A stretch of DNA of 49,006 nt. Source: a virus. Below the pieces are notes generated by a model. That model saw only the letters and a program-made list of their open reading frames with translations. It searched no databases and had not been told where the DNA came from. Every line of letters begins with the position of its first letter. The stretch's first letter is position 1. The position numbers and the translations under genes are program-made. The stretch is from positions 1-49,006 of the IMG/VR virus record IMGVR_UViG_3300028735_000013, one strand, 5' to 3'. Of this stretch, positions 19,327-46,895 are shown in pieces.

Positions 19327-20742
19327 TTAGTTATAGAAGCCGTCGTTCGTGTAACCGACGTTCTTTACTACGCCGTGGTACCACGGCACCTTCACATCCG
19401 GTGTTCCGAAGAGCACGATGAGGAAGGGCGTGACCGCCGCGCGGGTCGGGTAAAGGTCGAACTTCATGAGCGGGAGGAACTGGTCGAACTGGACACTCGG
19501 CTCAAGCGCGTCATGGCTGAGATACAGTATCTCGCCGGTACCCGGCAGGTCCTCGTTCTGGTCGAGCACGACAGTGGTCGCGGCGCCCGAGTCGCCGACG
19601 CGAACCATCTCCCGAACGTCGGCGCCGCTTCCGGCGTCTTTCTTCGAGCGACAGATGATGTAGCCGGTCCCCTTCTTAGCCCCGGGCGTGATCGTAATCT
19701 TTGCTTCCTTACCGCTGGCGAGGGCAAGGGATGCGACGGCAGCTCCTGCGGAGACGCCATACTCGTTGATCGCGAAGACCTGATAATAGTAGGTCCCAGC
19801 CGATGCGGAGTCGAATCCGCGACCGCCGTTGGGGGTAAGATCCTGGGCCGCCAGGGCGAAGGTGGGTGCATCCGGGCGCTTGGAGGTGTCGCCGGAGGCG
19901 GCAACCTTGCCCTTCACGTAGAACATCTTATCCGGTCCCGCTTCTTTCCCTGCGATCTTGATATCGCTGGAGAAGGGGGTTGGATACTCCAGCACGACCT
20001 GCGCTCCGCGGCGATCGTCCGGGTTGAAGCGGAGCCTATCCTTCGCAAGCTTCTGGAAATCCTGCGCGATCATGGAAGGCATGAACGCATGGGAGAGGCT
20101 TCCGCCGTTCTCGAAGACCTGACGGGCAATCTCCGTGATGGAATCCTCCCCGGCGGCATCTGACATCTTGGCTCCACGGAGATCCACAAGGTTTCGGCGA
20201 CTCGCGTTCGCCTTGACCTGCTTAATCACGGAATCGAATTGGACGGGTACTACCGCGCTGTCAGCCTGGAATATGCCATACTCGCAGCCCTTGAGAACGG
20301 TCAGCGTTCCCGCGAGCTTTTCGGAGGCCACAGCGTCCTCGATGGTTTTGGCGACCTGCATCTGGAGCGTGACTTCGCGATAGGTCTGCATGTACTTCAT
20401 GGGCCGGGTCACGCGCTCGAGAGACTGGCTGGAATCTCCAGCGTCGCCACCCTCGCTCGTGAAAATGTTCATGAAATCACCGGCGTCGTTTCGGCGGGTG
20501 TATTCATGCACGGTCGATCCAACTTTAGGCTTCGAGAGAAGGTTCATTAGCTTGAAATCCTCCTGCTTGGCCGCGAGAGCATTGACCATGGTCATCTCGA
20601 TGTCCTGCGGGATAAGAGCTCGGCCGCCAGTCATGGCCGCAGAGTCGGTCCCGTACCCCGCAGAGAGCGCCTTCTGGAGTTCGCCTTCAGTGACGGATCC
20701 GAACATGTATTCGCTGGCATTGGTGGGTTCTAGGAAGTTCAT
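19327..20742 (-). CDS. Major capsid protein with inserted Ig/FN3-like domain
   Basis: 471 residues, in the HK97-type position after the protease/scaffold gene and with AAGGAGG before ATG. The N-terminus (to about 50) includes A-G-Y-G-T-D-S-A-A-M-T-G-G-R-A, which is repeated in the protease protein. The core has helical and beta parts typical of capsids (D-D-R-R-G-A-Q-V-V-L-E-Y-P near 245; A-V-T-P-F-L-I-V-L-F-G-T-P near the end). Between about 285 and 395 there is an insertion with G-T-Y-Y-Y-Q-V-F-A-I-N-E-Y-G-V, the mark of a fibronectin-like or Ig-like surface domain. It forms the icosahedral shell. Confidence 0.85.
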   Translation of the reverse strand: MNFLEPTNASEYMFGSVTEGELQKALSAGYGTDSAAMTGGRALIPQDIEMTMVNALAAKQEDFKLMNLLSKPKVGSTVHEYTRRNDAGDFMNIFTSEGGDAGDSSQSLERVTRPMKYMQTYREVTLQMQVAKTIEDAVASEKLAGTLTVLKGCEYGIFQADSAVVPVQFDSVIKQVKANASRRNLVDLRGAKMSDAAGEDSITEIARQVFENGGSLSHAFMPSMIAQDFQKLAKDRLRFNPDDRRGAQVVLEYPTPFSSDIKIAGKEAGPDKMFYVKGKVAASGDTSKRPDAPTFALAAQDLTPNGGRGFDSASAGTYYYQVFAINEYGVSAGAAVASLALASGKEAKITITPGAKKGTGYIICRSKKDAGSGADVREMVRVGDSGAATTVVLDQNEDLPGTGEILYLSHDALEPSVQFDQFLPLMKFDLYPTRAAVTPFLIVLFGTPDVKVPWYHGVVKNVGYTNDGFYN

Positions 20743-20757: not shown

Positions 20758-21426
20758 TTACATGGACTTGATGAGACGGAGCGTGCCGTCGTTGAGGGGC
20801 GCCCCTTTGTTTAAACGCTCCTCGATGATCGCCGCTTCCTGGGCTGACATCTTTCCGCTTTGGACGGCCTGCATGGACTTCTGGATGATCTCCTGACGGG
20901 TCATCGAGGTCTGTTTGCCGTCGGAGCCCACAAAACTGCGCTCCTGCTTGTTTATGATTGCCTGACGAGGGGCCGGTGCATCAGCTAGGCTCTTAACGAG
21001 CTTGCCGGTATTGACGATGGCTCCGCCCATGGATTTCTGGAAGGCGACCATATCTCCTACGGACTTCTCAAGAGCTGACATTCGCCTGGAGATACCCTTC
21101 GTTAAATTGTCTAGGTACGGTGTCACTTCGAGGAAGTCGGATGACGACTCCCGCATCTCGTCGTACAAAGACTGGGATTTCTGCATTCCCTTCTTGGGAC
21201 CCTTCGCGGTCGGTTTGAAGTCCTCCGGATCGGTCTCGGGCTCGTCAAGATCGTGCTCGTCGTCATTATCAGGGGCCCCAACGGCCTCATCCGGAGGAAG
21301 CTCGGAGAAGCCTTCATCGGTCTCCTTCTCTTCCTCGACCTTCCCTTTCTTGGGCTGATTCTTCATGGCCTTTTCGAGAGTCTCGATGGACTCATCGAAT
21401 GCCTTCTCGAGTTCATGGTCGTTCAT
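20758..21426 (-). CDS. Nested scaffold protein (internal in-frame start)
   Basis: Inside the protease gene and in the same frame, an ATG at 21424-21426 is preceded by a near-perfect AAGGAGG five bases upstream. Translation from it would give a 222-residue protein beginning M-N-D-H-E-L-E-K-A-F, acidic and coiled, with the same C-terminus as the protease. This is the arrangement of lambda C/Nu3, where the scaffold is made from an internal start. The ribosome site is directly visible. Use of the start is an inference. Confidence 0.6.
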   Translation of the reverse strand: MNDHELEKAFDESIETLEKAMKNQPKKGKVEEEKETDEGFSELPPDEAVGAPDNDDEHDLDEPETDPEDFKPTAKGPKKGMQKSQSLYDEMRESSSDFLEVTPYLDNLTKGISRRMSALEKSVGDMVAFQKSMGGAIVNTGKLVKSLADAPAPRQAIINKQERSFVGSDGKQTSMTRQEIIQKSMQAVQSGKMSAQEAAIIEERLNKGAPLNDGTLRLIKSM

Positions 21427-22233
21427 AAGAACCTCCTTCTTCATCTTCTCTTTGCGTGAAATTACATCGCGCAGAATTGACTTTGCCTCTTCGGGTGAGC
21501 ACCCCCGATTCTTCAAGAGCTGTTCGGCTTCGTCTTCATTGCTCACGTCTCCATAGGCCATGGCCATGACAACGGCGTAAACATCGGGCTTGCGCCGTTT
21601 GCCGCCGTCCAGGTCGGACGGGATCATGGCCCGGCCTCCGGTCATCGCGGAGGAATCGGTTCCGAATCCCGCCTGTAGGGATTTAACGAACGCAGCGCTC
21701 GATAGCGCCACGGGTTCGAGCGTTTGGTTGACTGGTTTGAAGGTTATCGCAAGCTCATCCCAGAGGACCCTTACGACCTTTTCGATCGCCTGGCCGATTC
21801 GGGAATCCCAGCCCGAGACTACCTCAGGCCGCTTGCCACCGACGGAGGTCTTCAACCTCGTCGATCCGTCCTTGAGCTTTTTCACGATCTCGCGGGCGAT
21901 CGAATTCGACTTATAGAGCTTCGCCTTGACAAAAGTACGGTCGCCATCCGACCACACATCGATGGGCTCGCCAATGATGTACTTTTCCGGGGACCAGTTC
22001 GGGTCCTCGGGGTCGGGTCGAAGGTGTCTATGGTCATAAGAGATAACACCATTCGCAAGGAAGTATTCTTTCGAGCCGAGGAGCGCACGCTGAAGCACGA
22101 CCTGACCGTCGAAGTCCAAGTTCTCGTTCGACGCTTCGGCTTCGATGATCCAGTTTCCATGGTCGTCGGTTTCGATGGCCTTCGACAGGCTCAGCTCTAG
22201 ATAGACACGTTCTCTAAGATCGATGTCGTTCAT
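20758..22233 (-). CDS. Prohead protease with C-terminal scaffold region
   Basis: 491 residues from the ATG at 22233, chosen because GGAGAAG lies just upstream; an ATG 12 codons earlier has no such site. The N-terminal 170 residues fit the HK97-type prohead serine protease: I-S-Y-D-H-R-H near 64-70 gives the catalytic His, and L-K-T-S-V-G-G near 127-133 gives the catalytic Ser. Residues about 186-207 repeat a capsid N-terminal sequence. From about 265 on the protein is highly charged and coiled, rich in Glu, Lys and Asp, like a scaffold. It cleaves scaffold and probably the capsid N-terminus during head maturation. Confidence 0.82.
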   Translation of the reverse strand: MNDIDLRERVYLELSLSKAIETDDHGNWIIEAEASNENLDFDGQVVLQRALLGSKEYFLANGVISYDHRHLRPDPEDPNWSPEKYIIGEPIDVWSDGDRTFVKAKLYKSNSIAREIVKKLKDGSTRLKTSVGGKRPEVVSGWDSRIGQAIEKVVRVLWDELAITFKPVNQTLEPVALSSAAFVKSLQAGFGTDSSAMTGGRAMIPSDLDGGKRRKPDVYAVVMAMAYGDVSNEDEAEQLLKNRGCSPEEAKSILRDVISRKEKMKKEVLMNDHELEKAFDESIETLEKAMKNQPKKGKVEEEKETDEGFSELPPDEAVGAPDNDDEHDLDEPETDPEDFKPTAKGPKKGMQKSQSLYDEMRESSSDFLEVTPYLDNLTKGISRRMSALEKSVGDMVAFQKSMGGAIVNTGKLVKSLADAPAPRQAIINKQERSFVGSDGKQTSMTRQEIIQKSMQAVQSGKMSAQEAAIIEERLNKGAPLNDGTLRLIKSM

Positions 22234-22246
22234 ACTTCTCCATGGC

Positions 22247-22290
22247 GCTGAAAAAGAAAAGGGCCGCATGCCCCGAGGGGTATGCGGCCC
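22247..22290 (-). terminator. Intrinsic terminator / attenuator in the leader of the head genes
   Basis: A hairpin of 30 bases (GGGCCGCATACCCC / GGGGCATGCGGCCC in the transcribed direction, 13-14 pairs) is followed at once by TTTTCTTTTT, a clear intrinsic terminator for minus-strand transcription. It lies only 14 bases before the protease start and overlaps no gene. The bases in front of it (22305-22279) resemble those before the terminator at 46766-46815. Since the protease and capsid must be transcribed through it, it may be an attenuator or target of antitermination. Confidence 0.8.
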
Positions 22291-22322
22291 GAATCTCCAT
22301 TCGACGCCGAAATTCTGCTCTA

Positions 22323-22351
22323 AATGTACAAGTTAAGATTGAAGCAAACAA
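22323..22351 (-). promoter_or_regulatory. Possible promoter for the head genes
   Basis: In the short gap upstream of the terminator there is TTGTTT, a 17-base spacer and TACATT, which would start transcription near 22316. A perfect TTGACA also occurs at 22364-22359, overlapping the stop codon of the upstream gene, but no good -10 box lies at the right distance. The gap is the only non-coding stretch here and is AT-rich. Evidence is modest. Confidence 0.35.
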
Positions 22352-22360
22352 GGGTAGATG

Positions 22361-22585
22361 TCAAGAGATCATTTTGCGACCTCGCAGTGCGGCCCTGTAT
22401 GCGGCCTCGGCGGCTTCATCCCCTCCCTGGGCTCTTCGCCTAAGGATCTCCACGTTCACCTGGTTGTCATCGAATACCGCCTCCATGGCGGCCTCGATCT
22501 CCTTCCCCTTCACCCCGGCTTCGGCCCGGCGCCGCCCGATGCGCGCGAGGAGCCCGTATAGCTCATCCCGTCTGTCCTGCTTCAT
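22361..22585 (-). CDS. Small basic helical protein, unknown function
   Basis: 74 residues from MKQDRRDELYGLL, the start chosen because GGAGG lies five bases upstream and the ATG overlaps the previous stop as ATGA. A longer open frame extends upstream but its sequence there is Arg/Ser/Thr-rich nonsense lying over the two real genes. The protein is mostly charged helix (R-R-R-A-E-A-G-V-K-G-K-E-I-E-A-A-M-E) and may bind a partner or nucleic acid. It ends at the promoter/terminator gap. No family is recognised. Confidence 0.65.
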   Translation of the reverse strand: MKQDRRDELYGLLARIGRRRAEAGVKGKEIEAAMEAVFDDNQVNVEILRRRAQGGDEAAEAAYRAALRGRKMIS

Positions 22586-22869
22586 GCTGTCCTCCATTCG
22601 CCACGCTCGAGCCAGCCATGCCAAATGTGCTTCTCGGCCCACTCGCGAGGCGAGTTCGGATAGCCGCCTCGCCCCCAGAAAATCGAGGGGCTCACCGTGA
22701 TCGTACCGTCTTCCCACGTTGAGACATCGGCGGTCAGAAGGAAACCGTCGTCGTCGCGCGGGACCGGGGCGGCGACCTGCCAGTGGCCGTCCTTGTCCTT
22801 CCAGTAGTCGCCGGGCTCGACGGGTGAGCTTGTGATATTGTCCGGATTCTCTATGCGTCGGCCCTTCAT
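22582..22869 (-). CDS. Small protein of the injected-protein block, unknown function
   Basis: 95 residues, overlapping both neighbours by ATGA. It contains P-G-D-Y-W-K-D-K-D-G-H-W-Q-V-A-A-P near 19-35 and several tryptophans toward the C-terminus (W-G-R-G-G-Y ... W-A-E-K-H-I-W-H-G-W-L-E-R). It looks like a compact beta-rich soluble protein. The tight coupling to the 1653-residue helicase suggests a partner or regulator of that protein, but this is only inference from context. Confidence 0.7.
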   Translation of the reverse strand: MKGRRIENPDNITSSPVEPGDYWKDKDGHWQVAAPVPRDDDGFLLTADVSTWEDGTITVSPSIFWGRGGYPNSPREWAEKHIWHGWLERGEWRTA

Positions 22870-25800
22870 GCCGCCTTCTCCTTGTCGATCCCCTGGTTGT
22901 AGCGGTCCTGTCTAACGGCCGCGATCGTTGCCGCGAGGCCCGTGTCGTCGAGTACGCCAGGATCCTCCTCGAAAATACTCCCAAGGGCCTTCTTACGCTG
23001 AATGCGCTCCCACTTCTTATCTTCGTGTTCCGTGTCGGACACGATATCGTGGTACTCGATCTCCTTGTGGGCCTGCCCCATGCGGTCGATGCGGCCTTCA
23101 CGCTGTTGCTTCACCCACGATGTCTGGGGAAGATCGAAGTTTATGAGGTATGCAGCGTTTTGTAGGTTGAGCCCTGTCGCTCCTGCGTCCGAACATAGGA
23201 TAACGTCGTAGATTCGGTCCTTCGGGTTCGGAGGGTTGAAACCGACCTTAACCTTCTCTTTATCGGCGCCGTTCATGCTACCCTGGATGATCCCGACCCG
23301 GTATCCTTTCGAAGATAGAGCGGCCCGGAGGTTCTCCACGGTCTGGATGTTGTGGGCAAAGATGACGCCGGGTTTCCGGTCCCCCGCCTTACTCGCCGTC
23401 TTCTGGTTGTCCTCGCCGTAGACCTTTTTCTCGATTATATCGACCGCGCGGGTGATCTTGGCGTTTTTCTTCCAGTCGTACTGGTTGACGACGCGGTTTA
23501 GGGCCTCTTCTTTGATCGTCCCGGAAGACTCCTGGAGGCGGCGCGCAATCTCCTCATGCTTCGCCTCGGGCTGATTCTTAAACGAGCTCGGGGACAGGGC
23601 TTTCATAGCCTCCACGTCAACCGCCCCTGATCGCTGCGCCTTGCTCGCCCGTTGGAACATCTCCTCGACCTTGGCATACTCAGCCGCCTGATCCCCGGTC
23701 AGAGGAACGACCTCTTTCTTGGAAACCTTCTTGACCCCCGTCACGGTGGGGCTCGCATAGTTGTAGCGCGAGATGAGCCGTTGGAGGGACCGACGAGCAA
23801 AATCCGAATCGACACCATATCGCTTGATGAACTCGTTTCGGTCAGTAAAACGGTCAGGAGCTACTTTATGGAGCACATCGAAGGCCTCGGAGATATCGTT
23901 CTTGACTGGCGTGGCGGTCTGGTTCATGAAGTACGTGACGTTCTGGTTCAGTGCGTCGATGACGTTCGAGAGCGTCGTGTCCTCTTTCCCCTTCCGGTTC
24001 GTCGTGTAGTGGGCCTCGTCCACGGTGAGCATGTCAAAGGAGATCCCCTCCTTCTTGAGGGCCTCGCCGAGTAGGCGCCGGCGCTCCTCAGGCGATTGGT
24101 CGTTGAAATGGGCCTTCATCGCCTCCGGGTCCATGCCGTTGTGCTTGGCCATGAGGTGCACCATGTCATCCCGGAGGGACTGGTGCGTGAAGACCACCAT
24201 ATCGAGCTTTCCGTCCTTCATGGCCTGGATGCGGTCGTCTCGGGAGAGCGAGGGGTCCGACTTCACCCGGTACTTACCCGGTTCGCAAAAGACGTTCACC
24301 TCGTTGCCGAACTGAGAAAGAACTACCGAGGGGACCGCGAAGATTGCACGCTTCGCCTTACCCTTCGACTTCAGCTCCGTGAAGGCGCCGATCGAGATGA
24401 TCGTCTTCCCTTTTCCGGTTCCGAAGGTGAGGTTCATCCGCTTCGTCGCCTCGAACATCTTGATAGCTCGCTGGCGCTCGCCATTCGCCTGCATTGTGGA
24501 TACGGCGTATCGTTGCCCACGGAGCTGATTCCTCGAAAGTTCGGGAATGATTGAGGCGAGCTGGGTCTCCGCGCGCTTCCCGATCGAGAGAATCTCGGTC
24601 CCGTCGTCCTGCTTGAGGTCCTCTCCACCGAACATATCACCCTGAGCCGCCTCGGCGCGCTTCTTCTCCTCGATGTACTCCCCAAGCTTATCCTTCCACG
24701 ATCCCGAGGCGAAGCGCCCGTGGGAACGGTTCGCTAGCTCTCCACCAGCCTCTCCCATCTCGCGCTTGAAGCGTTCGATATAAGAGTCCCGAACATCTTT
24801 ATGGAGCATCCCGAGTACGTGATCCTGGGCGTTCCTGATCTTTTCGACCTTCGTGGCAAGCTTTTTCCCCGTCACCCGGCCATAGTTCTTGATGAAGCGC
24901 TCTGTGAAGTCCCCACGGATACGGTCGATGATGGCGGCCTGGGCCCGGTCGGTATCTCCGTGCATCCGGACATATTCCCCCCAGGGACTCTTCTCCTGAC
25001 GGATCTCTCCCGCATTGAATTCCTCCTCAGTATGCCCGGACATCCACTTAAGGTAGTGATCCTTCATCTGACTACGGTAAAGCTCTTCCAACTTTCCAGG
25101 GAGCTCTTCCTCGAGCTTCTTCACCTCGCGTTCCGCCGCAGCCGCGTCGGTGACCATGGACGGGTCACGTAAGTCGTCGATCTCATCGAAGAGCTCCCTG
25201 GCCCCGTCCACGTTCGCCCGATACGTCGCCCAGTTGCCGGGTACGACTCGAGCCAGAGGAGGGATGTCCTTCTCGCCGAACATGTCTTCCGTCGAATGGT
25301 GCTCGATGAGGTCCTGACGGATTACCGCAAAGGCCGCCTCCTCGCTTCCCCCGTTCTCCCCTTTGAGGAACTTCGCCCAGACCCCCTGCCGGGACGCCGC
25401 CTTGCCCTCCGCGATGTCCTGACCGGACGTGGCCTCAGCCATACTTCCCTTGTAGATGTTCCTCTCCCAGTATCGTCGGAGGTCTGTCTGATCCTGCGGA
25501 GTAAGGTCTTCCAGAAGCTTGAAGGCGAAGGCCCCTTCGGGCATCTCGCCGAGGGTCCGGTGAACGGCCTCCTCGGTCTTGTGGATCGCCTCCGCGTCAT
25601 CCCCGAGGCTCTGGTTATCCACGTCGCCAGCCGGAGCCTCGGCGTCGGGACCGGGGTCGACGAAACTCTCGGCGTCTCGACGAACGAGGCCCGCCGGTAG
25701 CCAGTTCTCCTCGTCACGCTCCCCGGCCTTGATGGCTTCGACCTCCTCCTCGATCCGGAGTTCCTCGGCATCGACCGGGTGGATTAGCTTGTCAGGGGTA

Positions 25801-27827
25801 TTTATAGTTACCACCTTGCTTCCGCCGACCGAATCAATGGCATAATCTTCTTTCGACAACCCGAGGGCGTGCATCCTGATGATCGCATCCTCATTCGAGA
25901 TATCCCCGAGGTTTACCTCCAGGCTTTTCGGGTCTTTCGATCCTTTGAGTTCCAGGACCATGGCTGCGGAGGCTTCGAGGCTTCCCAGGGCCTGGCCGAT
26001 TATGCGATTCGCCTCGTCGAGGTAGGAAAGTCGTGACTCGTTGAGCTCGGCCGCGGCCGCGAGGTCGGCGGGGTTGGCCGCGATCTCTTCCTTGATCGAT
26101 TCGGCTCGCGCGAGGAGGTCCTTCCCCCTCTCGATGGCCTCGGAGGCGATGGTCTCGTTGACAGCTTCGTGGTAGCGCTCCATGCCATCCGCGAAGTCCT
26201 TGTAGTCCTCCGGCGACATCAGCCGACGCGCCATCATTGCAAGAAGCTTAGAGCTTGCCCCGACTCCGAGAATGTCGACAGTATCCCGATCGAGTCCTTC
26301 CGTCTTCATAGCCGCCAAGGCTATGGAGTTGAAACCGGAGTAGTTGCCGTTGGCGACCCACTTCTCAGCGCCGCCGGGGTTCTTCGCGATCGCGTCGAGA
26401 AGGGAGGAGTGGACGGCCGCCTGGCGCTCCGTCTTGATTCTCTCGGCCTCGCTCTCGAGGTCAGCGTCCAGGAGCTCGTGGAAATCCAGCGTGACGCCCT
26501 TGCCGTAGGCGAGGTCCTCGACTGAATCGGCGGCTTCGTCGGGCGTCCCGTCGAGCTTGATTTGGGCCCCGCCGTCCCTCTTCTTGTCGAGCTCGGCGAG
26601 TTTTTTCTTCATCGCCAGGTAGCGCTTCAAGACCTCCGTCTTCTTGTCCACATCCTCTATCGGAGCCCGCGGCGTCTCTTCGATCTCATACATGTCGTTC
26701 TTGACATCATTTATTCGCCGGTTCGCCTCAATACCACGTGTAATCAAGGAAGCGAGGTTGGGATTATCTTTGGAGATCTCCGCCATACGCTTGGAAAACA
26801 TTTCGTTCTTTGCCCGCTTCAACGCCTCCTCATCAAGGCCTCCCTTCTTTTCGGCGCTATCCCGGTATCCCGCCACGAATCCCTTCCCGCGGCCTGAATT
26901 CTCCTTTCTCAGAACCTCCACAGCCCCAGTATTCCCGCCGAGGCCAGCTTCCACCTGTGCGCGGAGGTCCGCGTCGCCGATGAGCTCGCGCTGAATCTGT
27001 CTCACAGCATCCTTAGCCGAGGCCATGAAGTTCGACCGCTGGCTCTTGATGGCGCGCTCTTCGGCCTTTTTGTTAACCTCTAGCTCCTTCTCCAGCCGCT
27101 TCACAGCATCCTTGTCCCCATCTTCCTCGGCCTGCGTCATCTTTTCTAGGATAGCTTTCCGTGATTTTGCGAAGTCTTCCTCGATCGGAGACGGGTCCCA
27201 CCCCATAAGGTCAGCCATGTAGGAGGTGAACTCCTCTTCGGCCTCAGCTTGGGCCTTCTTCTCTTCCGACTCGGCCTGCTTTTGCAGTTCCTTAGCCGCC
27301 TTTTTCTGGGACTTATACTCCTTCCTCTCGTCAGCGCTCATTCGAGAGATTTCCTCTTGCTCTCGGAGCTTTTCCTCAAGCTTCTTCCGCTTCTTGTCTT
27401 CCTTCCGTTGCTCCATCGCCTGGGCATACTCATCTTTGCTCTTGATCTTGTTCAGCTTGAGACCGTTGAGCTTCCCGCCAGCCCCCGCAATTACGTGAGC
27501 CGTTCCCTTGCCGGTGTCCTGGATCATGACAGGGGTTCCATCCTCGGCACCATTGGGATGAACCGTGATCCACCGCGCACCCCGCGGGAGAGCACTCTTC
27601 GCCTTCGGGTAGGCACCCTGGCGCTCTCCTCCGGTCCCGGCACCGATGGACTCGGCCTTCTGAAGGCGGATATACTCCCGCGCCACGCGGAGGGACTTCT
27701 GCATGGCGAAATACTCTCGGATCGAGAGTTCGGTGTACCCATCGGGCTCTACGTCCATGACGCCGGACTTCCGAAGCTGTTCGAGACCCTCGGGACTATA
27801 TGCGTAGCTTTCAATTTTGTAGAACAT
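22866..27827 (-). CDS. Giant SF2/SNF2-like helicase protein with coiled-coil region
   Basis: 1653 residues. Residues about 130-300 are an extended Lys/Glu-rich coiled coil. Near residues 80-100 is a segment A-R-W-I-T-V-H-P-N-G seen in phage polyvalent proteins. The C-terminal 520 residues form an SF2 helicase: Walker A G-T-G-K-G-K-T near 1137, V-D-E-A-H near 1267, N-Q-T-A-T-P in motif III, and Q-R-E-G-R-I-D-R-M-G-Q in motif VI near 1577. This last motif is typical of SNF2-like proteins. A Q-G-D-M-F pentapeptide lies near 1060. Likely injected with DNA, to act on host or phage DNA or on restriction complexes as DarB does. The middle is not recognised. Confidence 0.8.
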   Translation of the reverse strand: MFYKIESYAYSPEGLEQLRKSGVMDVEPDGYTELSIREYFAMQKSLRVAREYIRLQKAESIGAGTGGERQGAYPKAKSALPRGARWITVHPNGAEDGTPVMIQDTGKGTAHVIAGAGGKLNGLKLNKIKSKDEYAQAMEQRKEDKKRKKLEEKLREQEEISRMSADERKEYKSQKKAAKELQKQAESEEKKAQAEAEEEFTSYMADLMGWDPSPIEEDFAKSRKAILEKMTQAEEDGDKDAVKRLEKELEVNKKAEERAIKSQRSNFMASAKDAVRQIQRELIGDADLRAQVEAGLGGNTGAVEVLRKENSGRGKGFVAGYRDSAEKKGGLDEEALKRAKNEMFSKRMAEISKDNPNLASLITRGIEANRRINDVKNDMYEIEETPRAPIEDVDKKTEVLKRYLAMKKKLAELDKKRDGGAQIKLDGTPDEAADSVEDLAYGKGVTLDFHELLDADLESEAERIKTERQAAVHSSLLDAIAKNPGGAEKWVANGNYSGFNSIALAAMKTEGLDRDTVDILGVGASSKLLAMMARRLMSPEDYKDFADGMERYHEAVNETIASEAIERGKDLLARAESIKEEIAANPADLAAAAELNESRLSYLDEANRIIGQALGSLEASAAMVLELKGSKDPKSLEVNLGDISNEDAIIRMHALGLSKEDYAIDSVGGSKVVTINTPDKLIHPVDAEELRIEEEVEAIKAGERDEENWLPAGLVRRDAESFVDPGPDAEAPAGDVDNQSLGDDAEAIHKTEEAVHRTLGEMPEGAFAFKLLEDLTPQDQTDLRRYWERNIYKGSMAEATSGQDIAEGKAASRQGVWAKFLKGENGGSEEAAFAVIRQDLIEHHSTEDMFGEKDIPPLARVVPGNWATYRANVDGARELFDEIDDLRDPSMVTDAAAAEREVKKLEEELPGKLEELYRSQMKDHYLKWMSGHTEEEFNAGEIRQEKSPWGEYVRMHGDTDRAQAAIIDRIRGDFTERFIKNYGRVTGKKLATKVEKIRNAQDHVLGMLHKDVRDSYIERFKREMGEAGGELANRSHGRFASGSWKDKLGEYIEEKKRAEAAQGDMFGGEDLKQDDGTEILSIGKRAETQLASIIPELSRNQLRGQRYAVSTMQANGERQRAIKMFEATKRMNLTFGTGKGKTIISIGAFTELKSKGKAKRAIFAVPSVVLSQFGNEVNVFCEPGKYRVKSDPSLSRDDRIQAMKDGKLDMVVFTHQSLRDDMVHLMAKHNGMDPEAMKAHFNDQSPEERRRLLGEALKKEGISFDMLTVDEAHYTTNRKGKEDTTLSNVIDALNQNVTYFMNQTATPVKNDISEAFDVLHKVAPDRFTDRNEFIKRYGVDSDFARRSLQRLISRYNYASPTVTGVKKVSKKEVVPLTGDQAAEYAKVEEMFQRASKAQRSGAVDVEAMKALSPSSFKNQPEAKHEEIARRLQESSGTIKEEALNRVVNQYDWKKNAKITRAVDIIEKKVYGEDNQKTASKAGDRKPGVIFAHNIQTVENLRAALSSKGYRVGIIQGSMNGADKEKVKVGFNPPNPKDRIYDVILCSDAGATGLNLQNAAYLINFDLPQTSWVKQQREGRIDRMGQAHKEIEYHDIVSDTEHEDKKWERIQRKKALGSIFEEDPGVLDDTGLAATIAAVRQDRYNQGIDKEKAA

Positions 27828-27831
27828 ATGT

Positions 27832-30800
27832 TCACCTCACGATCAGCTTTTTGCCGTGATTAGCCTTTTTGAAGGCCTCTTCCTTGAAATCCTCGATACT
27901 CGCCTCATCCATCCAACCGAAGAATCCTGGCCGGTCATACTGCTTCAAGTAGGCTTCTTTTGCCTCCTTGGGGCTGTCGAAGCCGAGCATGACCTTGTCC
28001 TCATCGTACTTTCCTGTAACCGGGTCGTTCTGGTGGACAACAAAGACCTTTTCCGACTCGGGATTTGGGCCGATGTAGCAATTATGAGTAAAAAACCCGT
28101 TGGCAATATATGTTCCGGCGTCTGTCTGAATAGCAATGTGCTCACCTGTATATTCTTCAATTTTAGCAACCACTGACTTTTCAAATTTGAGGGATTGACC
28201 AAGGAAGTTCCTCTTCTTGAAGATGGCTGGCTTCACTATTTGGGTGAACTGAAGACCCGCGTTATCGGAATTCCATTCAGAATCAAGGAACAAGGTGTTG
28301 CCTCGAACCTTCCCTTTCATACCAATCTTCAATAGGGCAACCATGCAGTCGTTGAATGTATTTTCCTTGTCCTTGGCCTGGCATATCTGAACTTCTTTTC
28401 TTAGGTTCAAACACCCGTCAGTATCGTATAATCCAGCAAGAAACCCGCGACACCAGTCATAATCATCCAAGCGTTTCAAGGTAATAAAATCCCTAGTGAA
28501 ACCTACCTTGTTCACCCCGCGTATCGAAAGTTTTGCTATTTTCATAGTCGAAAGCACAATTCTTCCGCTTGCATCGATAGGTGCAATTGTTTGATTAGGA
28601 TGGCGGACTAACACATCCGAGGTCTTGAGCCCAAGTGCATCCCAGTATTCTTTGACCCTGATTAGCATTTCGATACTTTCAACACCCTTGGCAATGTCGC
28701 AGTATACTTGCCTCCCTGAGTCAAAATTTGATGATCCATCACCTTTGTACGCTCCGTAAAGGTATCCTGCCATATACTCTGGCGACTCACCCCGGTTGAT
28801 CGGCCTGTACAGCGAAATAAGTCGATCACCGATGCGAAGATCATCGGCGCGCTTCCACTCCTTATCCCGCTTGTTGATAAAAACATAGTGAAGATGGCCC
28901 TTCGTCGTTTCAATTATTCGACCGTCGTCAAGGATTATCCTGAGCATAGGCGAAGAAGATCGAGCGATGTTTACGACTTTCACTCCCTGATGCTTCCTAT
29001 GCCCGATAAGGCTCTTGTTTGGTTTTTCCTCTGAACCTATCAGCACGTCGCCAATCGCAATATCCCCGGCCCTCTTTTCCAAATAATCTAGCGTAAGGAT
29101 TTTAGTATCGGGCGATACGCAATCCAAGTGTTCTTTGTCCTTCCCGACAGTCCCTCGGATATACCCATAATCAAAATTCATCTTCGTTTTCCACTCGTGA
29201 CCGTCCTTGTCAACACCACGCCGCACGCTGCCCTTCCGGTTCTCGATGCTAATATCCATGCCATGGAGCTTCTCCCTGCCCTGGAGCTTATACCCGCTCC
29301 ATGTTGCGGACTTCTCCAGGCCGAGAGCTTTGAGGAACTCATTGTCCTCAATAAAGAACCGCTCGACGAGAGGGAGGACCTTCGCCTCGTAGACTTCCTG
29401 CTTAGGATGGTTCCCTTTCTTGTTCCAGGTCTCTTGGTATTCAGCCTGGGCCCCGCGCTTTGTGGCGAAAAACTGCTCGAGCGCGCGGGCGAAGCATTCG
29501 CAGGTCCGGTTCTGGTAGTCCGATTTTTGATCCTTCGCCATGCTCGAACGGAAGGTACGCGCTATCTGTCCGGGGAGCGATGACCAGTCGTCCGAGGCGT
29601 AGAAATGGCGCCCTCCCCGCGTGCCGAGGTAGTTGTCCATGAAGTGCGCCCACTCGTGCGCGAGCGTGAACCCAAAGCCCGTCTCCCCGTTCTGCATGGT
29701 GACGCCGATCGCGTGGTGTGCAGGAGAATAGACACCGACCGCGTTTCTGGCGTGCATGAGCACCTTCCCGGAATGGCTGATTTTAAGACCGAATCCTTTG
29801 GCCATGGAGGAGCGATCCCCGTAGACGCCATATACAGCGTCCAGGGCGGTCTTAATGTCCTGAATCTCCTTCGTATTTATCTCGTCGCCATTCTGGCGTT
29901 TCACGAGTACACCATAGTCATCCAAAAGGTTCTTGCGAGCACCCTTGTCCCCGTAGGATGTCTCCTGCCCCTTGGTGTAGGAGGAATAGTTCTCTTCAAT
30001 CTGTATTTTCATGTCGGAGAGCTTCTGCTTCATGTCGACGACGGCCTCGCGGATAGGTTTCCATCTTTCCGCCCCCTGCATGTCGAGAATGGCAGAGGCC
30101 ATGGAGAGCGTCGAGCTCATGGCCTTATTCTCCCCGAGCATCCTTACAGTGGTTTTCTTGGGCCTCATGCCGGAATAGAGCTTTGCCTGCTTTTCGTCAT
30201 ATCCCTTCGCGTGGGCCTTTGCTCGCTTCAGGTAGTAGTCCTGCATCGCGGCTAGGACATCGACCCCGACTCGGGCGTATAGCACCCCCAAAGGTCCCTT
30301 CCCCTCGCCCAGTCGAACCATATAGTCACTATCGCCGAGTTTCACGGCCTCAATGCGGTTACCTACACTGCCGAAGTACCTGTCGTCGATACGAGGTATC
30401 CAACCAGGAGAAGGCTTCTCCAGAATGTCCTTCTCGGGTACGAGGCTGATCTTGACCGGGATCACGTCCCGGTAATCGAGGTACTCCACCGTGTCTCCCT
30501 TCACGCGCCGCGGCTCGAAGGTGTAGGGCTCTGTGGGCTTCTCTTCCAGCTTTGCGCCGAAGAGCTGGGCCTCAGTCGCGGCCCGCGTCTCGGGCGAGGC
30601 CTTGGCCATAAGGGCGGCCACCTTGTCAGGCTCCCTCTCGGGGATGATCTCCTTGATGTCCTCGGGCTTCACGGCGAGCGTTTCCTTGTCCGTAAGGATA
30701 TAGAACACCCCGTCGGTGAAGTGGCTGATCTTCCCGATGGCATTCTTCCCGTTCTTCCCCTTGAACGACACCTTGGCGCCGTTCTTGAGCTGGGCGAGGA

Positions 30801-32919
30801 GCTTCTGGCGCCAGAGGGCCTCCTCGACATCCGCCTCGGCAAACATATCGAGCTGGGCCACGAGAGGCTTGTCTTTCGTGGCCTCCCCAGGGAGGACCCA
30901 CACGGTCGTCTCGAAGCGTGTCCCGTCCCTCGTCACGAAGATATTTTTCGGTACCAGCTTCGGATTCTTTCTCGATTTCTCCAGCATGGGAATGATGAAA
31001 AGGGCTTTTTTGAGCGGCTCCGACTCTTGCATATCGCTATTAGCGGTGGTATACTCTGAGGTGGAGGGTCTAGAAATGCCCGATTTTGAATCCGATTCAG
31101 TCGAATACTTTGAACGCGACGACACTCCCTTCGTCGAGGATCGCGCGACCGGTGATATTTTCTGGGTGTTTTCTAATAAGCCTTTCGAGAAAATGCCCAG
31201 AAACCTTGGAGCAAACGTCTGGGCCGAATCTCGTCTGCACGGCCACATCATCGACCGGGCTGAAGCGCTTCGGCTTGCTGTTGCGATGGGCCGGTAACAC
31301 TGCATAGATTTTTCAGTCCTTCCGCTTCTTGCTCGCTCTATAGCTTCCGCCAAATGTTTTTTTGTCTTATCTTTCAACTTCCCAATTATCCCTGATATTA
31401 CTCTCTCGGATTCTATGACGAATGGACGGGCGATTTCAAATGATGACGACCTTCGCTCGGCATAGGCTTTGGGCGATTGACTTGCCATCCACGCCTCTTG
31501 ATAAAGCGCCAGTTGAGCGCTTCCCAAATAATCGAGTACTTCTTTGTCCGCATTTTCTAACGCCTTTGCCTCGCGCCATATCTCATAGAACAGATGGCCT
31601 TCCTCCTTGGCTTCAGCCATCGCCTTTGTGGTTAGCTGGACCTCGGATATCATCCCATTCGGCAGCTTCACGTTCATGTTTATGTCACGGTACCCGACCG
31701 GTGATTGGGGAGTGGCAAAGTTATTCTTCAGCCTCATCACCCGTGGGTCGGCCATGAAGAACTCCACGGCGGACGCGAGGGACTCGAGTCCATCGAATAT
31801 CAATGTATGGCCATCGAAGTCGTAGACCTGGGAAGCGTCGGAAGCCCCATCCTCGCGCATCTTCTCTTCGACGCGGCCGCGGTCCTTCAGCTTGTTCCGC
31901 GACTGTACTTCTATCGCCCCGAGCTTCTTCGCGGCCGCCTCGATGGACGCCTTGAAGCCCTCCCTGGCGTCCTCAGCCAGACGGTAGAGTTCCCCGATGT
32001 CCCCGGAAGGCTGTACGAGGTTCTTCTTGTCGATCTTTTTCTGGTAGTTTGGGTCAAGTAGGCGAGCCACCTGCTCTGAAGAATGCCGTGGAGAGAAGGA
32101 CTCCTCTCCCTCCTTCTGTCTCGGAGCGGCCTTGCCATCTCCAGGCCGAACCAAGCGCATCTGCTTGACAACGGATCCGTCCTTTCGGTGCACGTCGACT
32201 ACCCGCCGGACCAGGTGGGAGAGGTCGCGCGCTTTCGCTAGAATAGGAATCGCGAGAAGCGTCGAGATTGCCTTCTTTAGACCAAGCCTCTTCGCCGATT
32301 CGATAGCCGCCGGCTCGTCAACCAGGCCGGCCTCGATAAGCTTCTTGTAGTAGTCGGGGTCTTCCTTGAGGTGATCCTCGGCGATCTTGCGGGCCTCCGC
32401 GCGGCCCTCGTGGTGCTCCATCTCGACCTTAATCCCCACGGCTAGCTCGGGGTTGTGGGTTTCGGCTACACCGAGAAGCTCCTTTTCCGTCAAGAGGCCC
32501 GCTGAGGATACCGCCTTCCACATGGGGCTCGATTTCTGAATGACGAGCTTCTTCGCGACTTCCCTGCGCTCCATCTTGGACTGAGGCCGAACATCGTCGA
32601 ACTTAGAGACGATCGCTAGCTTCCCGTCCTTAAGCCCTACGCCGAGTACTACTCCACGCTGCCAGTCGCCGCCGGCCTCGAAATAGGCGATGTCCTTCCC
32701 ATAGCGGATCAGCTCGCAGTTCTCGAGGTCGAGTCCCTGAGGGAATCCATCCAGGTCTTTCAGTTTGCTCTTGTTGCCGTAGATGTCGATCTTCCCATCT
32801 TCCCCCGCGAACAGCTTCATGAAGGCCGTGTAGAATCGGCTATCCAGCCTCCCCTTGGGGATCGATTTCGCGAGGCTCTCCTCGTTGTCGGTGTTCTTCC
32901 TGATATACAATCCGGGCAT
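27832..32919 (-). CDS. Giant multidomain (polyvalent-type) protein: RelA/SpoT-like, metallopeptidase, intein-split pyrophosphatase-like
   Basis: 1695 residues as one open frame; GGAGG before ATG. Residues about 300-500 resemble a RelA/SpoT nucleotidyltransferase (D-F-D-G-H-T-L-I-F near 368; G-Y-R-D-I-N-M-N-V near 407; E-V-Q-L-T-T near 424). A shared module ending Q-L-D-M-F lies at about 650-693. A zincin H-E-W-A-H-F near 1087 marks an LPD-type peptidase. The C-terminus (G-Y-I-R-G-T-V-G ... D + C-Y-I-G-P) is an inorganic-pyrophosphatase-like domain interrupted by an intein. Residues about 543-629 are Ser/Arg-rich and lie over a plus-strand gene, so the frame may really be two genes, the second starting near 31032, although that ATG has no ribosome site. 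Domain calls are from remembered motifs. Confidence 0.7.
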   Translation of the reverse strand: MPGLYIRKNTDNEESLAKSIPKGRLDSRFYTAFMKLFAGEDGKIDIYGNKSKLKDLDGFPQGLDLENCELIRYGKDIAYFEAGGDWQRGVVLGVGLKDGKLAIVSKFDDVRPQSKMERREVAKKLVIQKSSPMWKAVSSAGLLTEKELLGVAETHNPELAVGIKVEMEHHEGRAEARKIAEDHLKEDPDYYKKLIEAGLVDEPAAIESAKRLGLKKAISTLLAIPILAKARDLSHLVRRVVDVHRKDGSVVKQMRLVRPGDGKAAPRQKEGEESFSPRHSSEQVARLLDPNYQKKIDKKNLVQPSGDIGELYRLAEDAREGFKASIEAAAKKLGAIEVQSRNKLKDRGRVEEKMREDGASDASQVYDFDGHTLIFDGLESLASAVEFFMADPRVMRLKNNFATPQSPVGYRDINMNVKLPNGMISEVQLTTKAMAEAKEEGHLFYEIWREAKALENADKEVLDYLGSAQLALYQEAWMASQSPKAYAERRSSSFEIARPFVIESERVISGIIGKLKDKTKKHLAEAIERARSGRTEKSMQCYRPIATASRSASARSMMWPCRRDSAQTFAPRFLGIFSKGLLENTQKISPVARSSTKGVSSRSKYSTESDSKSGISRPSTSEYTTANSDMQESEPLKKALFIIPMLEKSRKNPKLVPKNIFVTRDGTRFETTVWVLPGEATKDKPLVAQLDMFAEADVEEALWRQKLLAQLKNGAKVSFKGKNGKNAIGKISHFTDGVFYILTDKETLAVKPEDIKEIIPEREPDKVAALMAKASPETRAATEAQLFGAKLEEKPTEPYTFEPRRVKGDTVEYLDYRDVIPVKISLVPEKDILEKPSPGWIPRIDDRYFGSVGNRIEAVKLGDSDYMVRLGEGKGPLGVLYARVGVDVLAAMQDYYLKRAKAHAKGYDEKQAKLYSGMRPKKTTVRMLGENKAMSSTLSMASAILDMQGAERWKPIREAVVDMKQKLSDMKIQIEENYSSYTKGQETSYGDKGARKNLLDDYGVLVKRQNGDEINTKEIQDIKTALDAVYGVYGDRSSMAKGFGLKISHSGKVLMHARNAVGVYSPAHHAIGVTMQNGETGFGFTLAHEWAHFMDNYLGTRGGRHFYASDDWSSLPGQIARTFRSSMAKDQKSDYQNRTCECFARALEQFFATKRGAQAEYQETWNKKGNHPKQEVYEAKVLPLVERFFIEDNEFLKALGLEKSATWSGYKLQGREKLHGMDISIENRKGSVRRGVDKDGHEWKTKMNFDYGYIRGTVGKDKEHLDCVSPDTKILTLDYLEKRAGDIAIGDVLIGSEEKPNKSLIGHRKHQGVKVVNIARSSSPMLRIILDDGRIIETTKGHLHYVFINKRDKEWKRADDLRIGDRLISLYRPINRGESPEYMAGYLYGAYKGDGSSNFDSGRQVYCDIAKGVESIEMLIRVKEYWDALGLKTSDVLVRHPNQTIAPIDASGRIVLSTMKIAKLSIRGVNKVGFTRDFITLKRLDDYDWCRGFLAGLYDTDGCLNLRKEVQICQAKDKENTFNDCMVALLKIGMKGKVRGNTLFLDSEWNSDNAGLQFTQIVKPAIFKKRNFLGQSLKFEKSVVAKIEEYTGEHIAIQTDAGTYIANGFFTHNCYIGPNPESEKVFVVHQNDPVTGKYDEDKVMLGFDSPKEAKEAYLKQYDRPGFFGWMDEASIEDFKEEAFKKANHGKKLIVR
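28081..29121 (-). mobile_element. Intein with LAGLIDADG-type endonuclease (in pyrophosphatase-like domain)
   Basis: 347 in-frame residues. It begins with C-V-S-P-D-T-K-I-L-T (block A) and ends F-F-T-H-N, followed by Cys+1 of the host protein. Block B is recognisable as T-T-K-G-H-L-H-Y. Two dodecapeptide-like motifs are seen: Y-L-Y-G-A-Y-K-G-D-G-S near residue 130 and F-L-A-G-L-Y-D-T-D-G-C near 235. Removal restores the host sequence K-E-H-L-D-C-Y-I-G-P, which fits the domain. The intein is probably self-splicing and, if the endonuclease is active, mobile. It looks somewhat more AT-rich than its host gene. Confidence 0.92.
31027..31055 (+). promoter_or_regulatory. Sigma70-like promoter on the plus strand
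   Basis: TTGCAT, a spacer of exactly 17 bases, then TATACT. This is four of six bases at -35 and five of six at -10, with ideal spacing. Transcription would start near 31062, just before GGAGGG and the ATG at 31076. It is the only good plus-strand promoter with a gene behind it that I found, and it runs against the whole surrounding region. Confidence 0.6.
31076..31297 (+). CDS. Small plus-strand gene embedded in a minus-strand gene, unknown function
   Basis: 73 residues, beginning M-P-D-F-E-S-D-S-V-E-Y-F. GGAGGG lies seven bases upstream and a promoter just before that. The protein has a natural mix of residues: an acidic start, an aromatic centre (D-I-F-W-V-F-S-N-K-P-F) and a helical end (R-A-E-A-L-R-L-A-V-A-M-G-R). 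The antisense minus-strand translation is Ser/Arg-rich and featureless, so this strand is the more likely coding one. A small regulator or an expressed accessory gene (moron-like) is possible; no family is recognised. Confidence 0.6.
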   Translation: MPDFESDSVEYFERDDTPFVEDRATGDIFWVFSNKPFEKMPRNLGANVWAESRLHGHIIDRAEALRLAVAMGR

Positions 32920-32961
32920 ATTGGCCTCCGTGCACGTTGGTAATAGGTTTTTTCTATGGCT

Positions 32962-32982
32962 CGGGCGCCCCGGCGGCGCCCG
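32962..32982 (-). other. GC-rich intergenic hairpin
   Basis: CGGGCGCC and GGCGCCCG form an eight-base stem with a five-base loop in the 69-base gap between the 127-residue gene and the 1695-residue frame. Imperfect flanks (AATAGG and CCTATT) could lengthen it. In the direction of transcription it is followed by A residues, not U, so it is not an intrinsic terminator. It may be an RNA-processing or stability element. Confidence 0.4.
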
Positions 32983-32988
32983 ACCTAT

Positions 32989-33372
32989 TCAGAATCCCGC
33001 GTTCTCGTCGAAAAGCGTATATGAATGGTCGACTCCATCGGGATCGGTCCATGAATGGTCGCTGACGTAGGCCTCTTGGCGGCCGTGGTAGTAGACCCCG
33101 GCCAGGACAGACCTGAAGAGGTCGCCGTGCCAGGCTCGCTCTTTCATGAGATCGTCGCTATAGGAGCCCATGAACCACGCCGCCTTGTCCGGGTAGAACT
33201 GCCGGAGGGCATCCTTCACGGCCCACCAGTAGACCCCGAAGCTCTTGTAGATGCGGCTGTTCTTTTTCAGCATATCCCCGATGTTGAGGGCTATCTGCTT
33301 TAGGTACTCGTCGCCCCCCGGAACCCGGAGCTTCTTGACTAGTCCATCCACGAATTCGTTGTCGTAGAACAT
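32989..33372 (-). CDS. Small protein within the injected-protein block, unknown function
   Basis: 127 residues, starting four bases after the stop of the 1846-residue protein gene with GGAGG upstream. The protein is helical in the first half (D-E-Y-L-K-Q-I-A-L-N-I-G-D-M-L), aromatic in the centre (Y-W-W-A-V-K-D-A-L-R-Q-F-Y-P-D-K-A-A-W-F), and ends in an acidic aromatic tail. No domain is known to me. Its position between two giant proteins suggests a partner, chaperone or co-packaged protein. Confidence 0.7.
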   Translation of the reverse strand: MFYDNEFVDGLVKKLRVPGGDEYLKQIALNIGDMLKKNSRIYKSFGVYWWAVKDALRQFYPDKAAWFMGSYSDDLMKERAWHGDLFRSVLAGVYYHGRQEAYVSDHSWTDPDGVDHSYTLFDENAGF

Positions 33373-33375
33373 GCT

Positions 33376-36300
33376 TCAACCCTCCTTTATTATTATACCC
33401 AATCGTGGGCCGCTTCGATAGATCATGTGTATCGACTTCTCGACTTTCAGACGCTTTCTGAACGCATATCCCGACCTTCCATGGTCGTACTCGACTTCAT
33501 ATTCCGGATTCATGGCGATGATTCCCTGAAGAACGTATGGAGAGGGCACGTCCTGGACTCCCTGGAGCTTCATTCGCTCTGCGATGTCCTCAACTGGTTT
33601 CCATTTATCCGAGGCCATAGAGTCAATGTATTCGGCCTCCTTGCGGGCCCTATAGGCCTTCATGACCGACCCCTTGAGCGCCTCAGCAATACCAGTCTGC
33701 TCGAAGACCGGATCGTTTACTGCGCCTCCATCCGACTCAGCCTCTCCAGAGCGCACGGCTGCGATTATCCGCGCCCGGTCCTCGGCGACATAGGGGTTTA
33801 GTACATCCTTAATGTCTTTCTTGGAGAATGACCACCCCTTCGAGGCGATCTCAACCTTCCCATCAGCGTTGACCTTGCAATACCGGGTCTCCCGGCTGGT
33901 CGATAACCACAGCATATCCCGATAATGGTCTCGCTTGAAATCCTCCGCCTGTCCAGCGAAGTCCGCTGGGGAGTAGAGAGATTTTAGCCTGACCAGATCT
34001 TCCTTTGTCGGGCTTGCGACGTGTACCAAGTGCTCCCCGCCGCCCTGCTTCCACTCCTCCCAATGGGGAGTCCACCCTTCCCCCTCCTGGGAAGCGGGCT
34101 TCAAGAGCATTGTCTGCTTCTTATGGTTGATTGTCATGGCGACAAAGGGTCCGCTCCTCATCATGAACACATCGCCCGGTTTGTAAACCCTACGCTCCGC
34201 CTTGTCGTAGATGAAGTCTGGCGGGTCATCTTTGAGGAGCTCAAGATTATGGAATTCCGGGTTGTTCCTTAGGGCCTCCTCCATATTGTAGAGCTTCCGG
34301 AGGCGGTTCTGATACTGGACGGTTCCCTTGTCCCCCTCGAACCCGCGGATTGATCCTCGCATGAGGCTGAGAGCCGCGAGCGTCTGGTGGACTTTCTGGG
34401 CGTTCGCCTCCTTGATCTTCCCGGCCTTTATCTTCTCCATCTCCGCGCGCCGCTCGTTGGCCTTCTCCTTGTCACCCCACTCCTCCGTGAGGGCGAGGAG
34501 GAGCTCGTCGGGATCTACGAATGAGTCATCGTTCGGATTGGTGAAGACGTTAGACTTGGTGCGGAGGAGCTGGTCGATCCAGTTCGCTTTGTTCTGAACG
34601 AGGTTGACCGAGTAGTTATCGATCGTCCCTGCGGTGAGATAGGTATTGAGCGCCACGGACGCCTGCTTGTTCCCCTGGCGGTCGATGCGTCCGTTCCGCT
34701 GGATTAAGTCCGACGGACGATAGGGGATGTCGAAGTGGTGCAGGGCGGCGCTGTTTTCCTGGAGGTTCACCCCTTCCCCAAGGGTTGGTGTCGTCCCAAT
34801 GATTACTTTGTACTTCCCGGAATTGTAGCCGTCGATTGCAGCGGATACCTCCCTTTCTAGCGCCGTGTCGTTCTTCTTCCCCCCGGCCTTCGTGATGCCG
34901 TTCACCACGACAATCTCGGATTCCTTGAATCCCTGTGCGACGAGGGCGGCCCTGATCTTGTCGTGCATGTTGAAAGATCCGTCGCCCGATAGGACTCGAT
35001 CGCAGAATACGACCTGCCCGCCTCCCGTCGCCTTGAAGCTCTCCATGGCGTTCTCGGCGAGCTTTGACAGCTTCGGATTCTGCCATCCGGCATACTTCGA
35101 TGGATTGTAGAGCTCGAGGTCAAGCGAGGCCGTCCGCATTCGAGAGTAGAAGGTGAGGAAGTTCTGGCCGGGATACTTCTCGTCCTTTCCGTCACTATCC
35201 AGGGACTTGAACTCCTCGAGCTGGGCCGAAAGGTCGCGAAGCACACCCGTCTGATCTTCCTGCATGGGAATGACATTTGGGTTGTTGTTAGCTTTCGGCT
35301 TCGGGAGTCCGATCTTCGTGGGATCGTTTTGGAGGTCGGTATACTTGAAGAACATATCCTGGAGGGTTCGCAGGTTCTTGAAGCCCTTGAGGACCTTCGC
35401 GTCTATGGTCTTGCCCGTGCCCCAGTCACACTTCGGCTGCACCTCGAAATCGGCGAAATTCCGGATGAAGTCGTCGATCGTCCTGATGTTCAGGCGGTCG
35501 AGCTCCTCCGGTGCGACGTGCATGAGCATGTTGTAGTATTCGAGCGGGCTGTTCGTGAGTGGCGTGGCGGTAAGAAGGAAGACGTTCTTGCCGTCATGAC
35601 CCCGCCGGATGAACTCGCTCTTCTTGAATAGGCTCATAGCGCGGTCCGATCGCCGACCGTCATTCATTCCGGTCTCTCTTGAGAGGCTCGAGCTGAAGAG
35701 GTTCTTGTAGTTGTGGGCCTCGTCCACGAACAGGGCATCGCAGCCGAAGTCCTCGAAGTTGATGGTCTGATTCGTCTTCCCGGCTTCGAGCTTCCCGCGG
35801 GCGGCCTCCTTGTCCTGCTCAACCTTCCGGGAGCTCTTCGCGGCCGCCTTGTCCATGATCTGGCCGGCCACGATGTCGTCGGTGATGCGCTGGTCCTCCT
35901 CGGGCCTAAGCTGTATCTCGGAGGCCGCGGACTCGGGGAGGATGATCACGTCGAAGTCCCCATTCGCGAGCTCCTGGTACATCTTGTATCGCTTCACCTG
36001 GCTCGAGTATCCCTCCGTCTCGGGGTCCACGGCTCCCACTTTGAGGCCAGGCATGGCTTTGGCGATCTCCTTTACCCAATCCTTCACCTTATTGTTTGGG
36101 ACCTGGACCATGGGCCGCTTAATCTTCCCCTCCTGCCGGAGGAGTCCGATTAGGCCGATCGCGGCAAGGGTCTTCCCAAAGCCCGTCCCGAGCGCCGTAA
36201 TCCCCTTTCCGGCTCGGTAAAGGTGGTGAATGGACTGCCATTGATGCCCTCCCAGGACGATCTTGGGGCTCCACCCGTCTATTCTAACAGCATAGGTCTT

Positions 36301-38913: not shown

Positions 38914-38922
38914 CAAAACCCC

Positions 38923-45807: not shown

Positions 45808-45831
45808 AGGTGTATACTTTTGTATTCACCT
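45808..45831 (-). other. Inverted repeat in the gap between terminase genes
   Basis: AGGTGTATAC and GTATTCACCT face each other across four bases in the 32-base gap between small and large terminase genes, overlapping the stop of the former by two bases. It could form a modest hairpin, act as a protein binding site, or affect large-terminase translation, since that gene has a weak ribosome site. There is no U run after it. Confidence 0.35.
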
Positions 45832-46597: not shown

Positions 46598-46751
46598 TGC
46601 CCCTGTCCTTACATTGATGGCGGAGGTATCCCCGAGCCTTGCGCCCGGTCTTCGTGATGATGGTCACAAGGGTATCGTCGACGATGATGATATCGTCGGA
46701 AATGGCGCTATTGATGTACTTTACCTTCCCGCCGCAATTTTTGCAGACCAT
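46581..46751 (-). CDS. Small zinc-ribbon-like protein
   Basis: 56 residues beginning M-V-C-K-N-C-G-G-K-V-K-Y, a Cys-x-x-Cys knuckle, with a further Cys near the end (H-Q-C-K-D-R). The centre is a strand-rich stretch D-I-I-I-V-D-D-T. GAGGTGG lies close upstream of the ATG. It comes just after the terminator at 46766-46815 and overlaps the terminase small subunit start. It could bind zinc and nucleic acid. Its function is unknown, but its position argues for a role in late regulation or packaging. Confidence 0.55.
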   Translation of the reverse strand: MVCKNCGGKVKYINSAISDDIIIVDDTLVTIITKTGRKARGYLRHQCKDRGNANKE

Positions 46752-46815: not shown

Positions 46816-46895
46816 ATCCTTCGACTCGGCGCCTTGCGCTATTCGTTTCTCTTCAAAGCTAGTATAGCTGGAAATTACCTGGACGAGAAAGGATG

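Follow-up and report, generated by a model that had tools for sequence, protein, structure and literature searches.

A repeated hairpin-terminator element ahead of phage late operons and its possible role in gating late-gene expression

Introduction

Control of phage late genes by antitermination usually involves a single Q site and a single operon, and to our knowledge the timing of late-gene expression in phages of Spirochaetota has been little studied. In the Q (PMC6606751), AlpA (PMC7969949) and LoaP (PMC12691694) systems, RNA polymerase is let past a terminator situated between a promoter and the genes that it serves. In the temperate phages lambda and 21 the late genes lie behind a terminator (tR') that follows the late promoter (PR'), and they are released by the antiterminator Q, which reads DNA between the −35 and −10 elements (qut/QBE) in combination with a sigma pause and serves one operon. 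AlpA of Pseudomonas aeruginosa is one factor acting on two operons, each with a promoter and a downstream intrinsic terminator, and its element also lies between −35 and −10. LoaP, a NusG paralogue, acts on the dfn and mln leaders of Bacillus velezensis, in which a promoter, a recognition hairpin and an intrinsic terminator precede the first gene; these hairpins have UNCG loops, are near-identical at several operons, and lie well upstream of the terminator. The putL RNA of HK022 is about 70 nt long and forms two stem-loops (PMC9378689); putL and putR lie near phage promoters in early operons, are not themselves terminators, and are proposed to act on the elongating polymerase, in a factor-independent manner and through the beta' zinc-binding domain.

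The window described here is the whole stretch of viral DNA that was analysed, 49,006 nucleotides of the IMG/VR record IMGVR_UViG_3300028735_000013, which is a fragment. In this group of phages, by contrast with the usual control through one Q site, between two and five separate late operons are each preceded by a copy of one transcribed element.

Results

Two copies of one element are present on the minus strand of the window, at 22251-22317 (copy 2, the head copy) and 46767-46842 (copy 1, the packaging copy), with covariance model scores of 78.9 and 64 bits, respectively. Further strong copies are absent from the window according to the same model, the next-best matches scoring 23.4 bits, on the opposite strand of one of the two copies, and 13.2 bits. 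The pattern GTCGAA-N(0-8)-TCGGGCC occurs twice in the window compared with 0.04 occurrences expected from dinucleotide shuffles, none of which contained two. Apart from these two sites, no strong intrinsic terminator is found on the minus strand of the 49 kb, where the next-ranked candidates have poor U tracts. In the transcribed direction of each copy, a variable leader separates a sigma70-like promoter from a GGYGC box, which is followed by a small hairpin with a purine loop (P1); the intrinsic terminator and its U tract come next, and then a ribosome site and the start of a late gene. The parts are located as follows.

22335-22364, minus strand: predicted head-operon promoter, TTGACA (22364-22359), 18 nt, AATCTT (22340-22335), in the top 1.2% of 85-nt windows, with a promoter-like site at the equivalent position in all relatives
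22304-22308, minus strand: conserved GGYGC-type box (GGCGT here), identified in alignments
22289-22304, minus strand: mini-hairpin P1, UCGAAU-GGAG-AUUCGG, with compensatory changes in relatives
22251-22290, minus strand: intrinsic terminator of the head copy, stem 22290-22261 (−23.1 kcal/mol), U tract 22260-22251
46861-46866, minus strand: −10 element TATACT of the predicted packaging-operon promoter, −35 uncertain
46767-46842, minus strand: packaging copy, with GGCGCCGA box (46833-46826), P1, terminator 46815-46776 (−29.6 kcal/mol) and U tract

An earlier note on this DNA, made from the letters alone, had described a repeated leader followed by a terminator, and the sequences quoted there for both stretches do read so on the minus strand. 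The string GGGCCGCATACC, which had been taken as leader before the hairpin, is in fact the 5' arm of the terminator stem, and the by-eye match of two GTCGAA strings paired shifted, non-homologous positions; in alignments the homologous box of the two copies is GGCGTCGA / GGCGCCGA, a few bases upstream. The covariance model yields the two strong copies in the window and more in relatives. The placement of the repeat before late genes is confirmed by the genes behind the two copies.

20758-22233, minus strand: head maturation protease (phrog_1028, E 4.9e-17), first behind copy 2
19327-20742, minus strand: major capsid protein (phrog_752, E 1.8e-52), next gene of the putatively gated operon
46581-46751, minus strand: zinc-ribbon-like ORF of 56 aa without family match, first behind copy 1
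45830-46597, minus strand: terminase small subunit (phrog_641), second behind copy 1
44220-45797, minus strand: terminase large subunit
42481-44223, minus strand: portal protein, following the terminase genes

Three very large ORFs (1653, 1695 and 1846 aa) lie on the minus strand between the packaging and head genes, at 22866-38916 of the window, and a comparable giant ORF in G376 has matches to DarB-like antirestriction, helicase and methyltransferase families. Upstream of the packaging copy, a small minus-strand ORF (46896-47162) contains an A9 run (TAAAAAAAAAGGTTCTGATA) that L010 and L078 share almost base for base despite diverging flanks and that is absent in G001; this run is possibly a slippage site.

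The earlier proposal that a promoter precedes the terminator is supported by promoter-like sites at both copies and at 15 of the 15 sites scored overall. At each, a −35/−10 pair is present in the 85 nt before GGYGC and ranks in the top 0.2-4% of random windows from the same locus, where the 15 sites are related copies and so are not fully independent, one of them (G014) is a diverged site, and the promoter matrix represents general knowledge of E. coli promoters. The −35 of the head operon overlaps the stop codon of the upstream ORF, and promoter scoring at the packaging site ranked another −35/−10 pair best. The protease start codon in the window lies only 17 nt past the U tract, which excludes a normal promoter between them; across sites the start codons lie 17 to about 60 nt past the U tract, leaving no room for a usual promoter at most of them. 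Sites elsewhere in G006 and G007 have the ordinary order of terminator and then promoter, indicating that the reverse order is not forced in these genomes.

Relatives of the phage were found at 71-95% capsid identity. Relatives in two metagenome-assembled genomes (MAGs), an uncultured Spirochaetes bacterium (L072, 88%) and a Spirochaetales bacterium (L073, 57%), point with the others to hosts in Spirochaetota, and the integrase, CI-type repressor, KilAC antirepressor and RecT genes carried by relatives indicate a temperate phage. The element amounts to about 20 sites in eight phages, and a model search of whole records places the relatives' copies before packaging, protease/capsid and holin-like genes. 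The third site of G001 stands ahead of a holin-like gene, about 24.6 kb beyond the protease site in the downstream direction; the end of the window would fall some 2 kb short of this lysis site. All three sites are present in G013 and in record G001, and the packaging copy is missing in G002, G007 and the L007 record.

Scanning 393 Spirochaetota genomes with a model based on 14 sites gave strong matches in G013 and at two copies in G376, a genome that had been left out of the model. One of these two precedes a homologue of the window protease, as judged by eye, and the other the DarB-like giant gene; the remaining G376 copies are located ahead of a holin-like gene and two tail genes (roles assigned by eye), which brings the total to five, and all five have a promoter-like sequence. 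A third model, obtained by refitting, was applied to 395 genomes of the class (a set partly overlapping the 393) and matched only G376 and G013. No other strong match was obtained in about 780 Spirochaetota genome scans (partly overlapping sets, with several genomes being fragments and model E-values rough), suggesting that the element is phage-specific. A weaker match, of 33 bits, was added to the last alignment; it lies in G383, with an integrase on one side and an excisionase-like gene on the other.

Directly upstream of the lysis copy in L066 (G001:1-6000) are a reverse transcriptase ORF (YMDD, IGNLMSQ) and an Avd-like ORF, at 2093-3094 and 3481-3879 on the minus strand, which constitute a diversity-generating retroelement positioned just beyond the low end of the window. 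Reverse transcriptase, bAvd and Mtd domains also occur among the scanned ORFs of relatives.

The fourth-position G of the GGYGC box is present in 19 of 19 sites, and the first two G residues in all but two. Copies of the element within a phage are 69-100% identical, with three pairs at 100%; the head and lysis copies are exactly identical in G001 and likewise in G013, as are two copies in G376. The promoter spacers and leaders mostly do not rise above shuffle level when the copies of a phage are compared, which argues that selection or gene conversion acts on the transcribed element. Judged from these sequence comparisons, the conserved information sits in the transcribed element and not in the promoter spacer.

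Covariation is partial. It is found among sites in the terminator stem, and in P1 together with the terminator foot both partners have changed in five pairs among the 14 sites compared, P1 contributing three of these pairs; this value was reached in 0 of 500 shuffles. The P1 hairpin is clear in the window phage (W), G001, G002, G003 and G007 and weak or broken in G004 and G376. Mini-stems of 3 bp are found at 49% of ordinary terminators and of at least 4 bp at 19%. Swaps of P1 arms between phages are only moderately significant (236/20000), with two rows out of register. We regard P1 as probable rather than proven. In the clear cases one or two bases belong both to its 3' strand and to the foot of the terminator stem; in the head copy of the window the final two bases of P1 are the first two of that stem. 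The P1 loops are GGAG, GAAG, AAGAC and similar. Other pairings were considered as well. A conserved antiterminator fold involving the leader upstream of GGYGC was rejected because the leader is not conserved between copies, and pairing of the P1 loop with the U tract was not counted, as a purine-rich and a U-rich stretch will inevitably pair. Only some copies, as judged by eye, allow GGYGC to pair with GCGCC past the U tract.

Discussion

The attenuation or antitermination favored by the earlier note best explains the conserved order of parts, although its comparison with qut does not hold, as recognition of the Q type in the promoter spacer is not found. A terminator placed between a promoter and its genes suggests that expression probably waits for read-through. 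With a probability of roughly 0.6, we infer a gate on late genes in which promoter-proximal terminators would hold a late regulon, regulated read-through would release it, and the signal would reside in the transcribed element. Host RNA polymerase would start at the sigma70-type promoter, transcribe the short leader with GGYGC and P1, and by default be stopped by the strong intrinsic terminator before the first late gene, so that an RNA of roughly 55-95 nt would be released. A factor, most probably encoded by the phage, would recognize the GGYGC-P1 RNA late in the lytic cycle and bring about read-through, switching on two to five operons at once (packaging, head, lysis, and sometimes tail). 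The gate terminator would also end the preceding operon. Because part of the P1 3' strand also belongs to the foot of the terminator stem, a plausible detail is that a factor holding P1 closed would keep the terminator from zipping up beside its U tract. Weighing against the gate are the weakness of P1 in G004 and G376, the frequency of short stems at ordinary terminators, the missing packaging copy in some relatives, and the negative search for known antiterminators in the fragmentary phage records.

A more far-reaching form of the proposal is that one trans-acting factor reads a hairpin interlocked with a promoter-proximal terminator at several or all late operons, which would constitute a termination-level regulon and a new class of late-gene control. 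This form is tentative, and the odds are somewhat against it; if it is true, the packaging, head, tail and lysis genes are one regulon switched at termination. The antiterminator families NusG, sigma-70 region 2, Antiterm and antitermQ gave no match in the phage records, which are fragments, and the early genes of two relatives include no known antiterminator among the families shown. A 110-aa early protein common to four phages is a possible candidate for the factor, as are small conserved proteins encoded close to the packaging operon. Both host MAGs encode a second NusG-domain protein (G013:C155:36824-37123 and G014:C38:85157-85432), which might take part in leader antitermination as a host factor. 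With their natural variants and sharp conservation boundary, the copies provide a ready reporter set and a route to the antiterminator.

Comparison with the described systems yields partial likenesses, and for Q, AlpA and LoaP alike a defining feature is missing here. As in Q systems, a terminator lies between the late promoter and the late genes, both being predicted here. However, no conserved site is found between −35 and −10, where spacer identity within a phage is about at shuffle level; it is the transcribed element that is conserved, and several operons are involved rather than one. The Q families PF03589 and PF06530 gave no match in six phage records, which are incomplete, Q proteins moreover being diverse. 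The locus resembles the AlpA system in having a promoter and a downstream intrinsic terminator at more than one operon, but lacks a conserved element between −35 and −10; the shuffle-level spacers argue against a site of either the Q or the AlpA type. The LoaP leaders are similar in the order of promoter, hairpin and terminator and in the near identity of hairpins at several operons. They differ in that the P1 loop is purine-rich and is not a UNCG tetraloop, the hairpin abuts the terminator, and no NusG was found in the phage records (fragments). The boxA-boxB layout of lambda nut is not apparent, judging from the non-conserved leader before GGYGC. Rfam gave no match at gathering score, and matches at relaxed thresholds were far below the gathering scores of their families.

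The resemblance to HK022 put, by layout, raises the alternative of an autonomous RNA, in which nascent GGYGC-P1, with or without the terminator hairpin, would bind polymerase directly and dispense with a phage protein. Two adjacent hairpins near a promoter do recall putL, and the negative search for an antiterminator gene in the phage records is in keeping with such an RNA. Nevertheless, the hairpin that abuts P1 is a terminator with a U tract, unlike put, and if read-through were constitutive, the conserved terminators would serve no purpose in a temperate phage unless its promoters were repressed; the alternative is unlikely. Slightly less probable still is that the terminators are plain insulators that end the previous operon, with a fixed, leaky read-through sufficing for late expression and the box only tuning terminator strength. 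The copies lie at operon boundaries, and no other strong terminator occurs on the minus strand of the window, which agrees with insulation. Insulation nonetheless leaves unexplained why the promoter precedes the terminator at all sites, why the GGYGC box lies outside the stem, and why the P1-loop sequence is shared among the copies of a phage.

The unit of promoter, structured RNA and terminator is also a complete small-RNA gene, and its copies are near-identical within a phage, so that each could produce a regulatory RNA of 55-95 nt whose place before late genes is secondary. This explanation is very doubtful given that the element abuts the ribosome site of the first gene of the late operon, that a phage has up to five copies, each with its own promoter, and that no other promoter is visible for the downstream gene. 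Least probable is a late promoter or activator site in DNA for a phage transcription factor, overlapping the hairpin and with transcription starting after the terminator: conserved sequence does stand directly before each late gene, as in the late promoters of Mu and P2, but the hairpin arms covary, the U tract and the upstream sigma70 promoters are conserved, no sigma factor was found in the phage records, and the U tract of the window is only 17 nt from the start codon.

The proposed gate on late genes may be compared with arrangements in more distant phages. The exact pattern GTCGAA..CGGGCCG..ATACC had 29 matches in viral contigs, which are attributed to chance, as no locus fits the model. 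In phages L090-L099, at 35% capsid identity, a strong terminator occupies the equivalent position ahead of the protease gene, about 1.6-1.8 kb upstream of the capsid gene, and several of these phages have a AGAGGYCAAAGAA leader and an extended −10; their mini-hairpins of 3-4 bp are within chance expectation and were not accepted as P1. A Com-like zinc-ribbon gene (PF10122) ends just before the terminator in several of these phages. The cultured relatives Touem01, Jeremy and PHB04 (L135, L137 and L139) also have a terminator before the protease, followed by a conserved GTCGTGAC(G/A)GCA block; the position of this block after the terminator indicates a different layout, and it is possibly a late promoter or operator.
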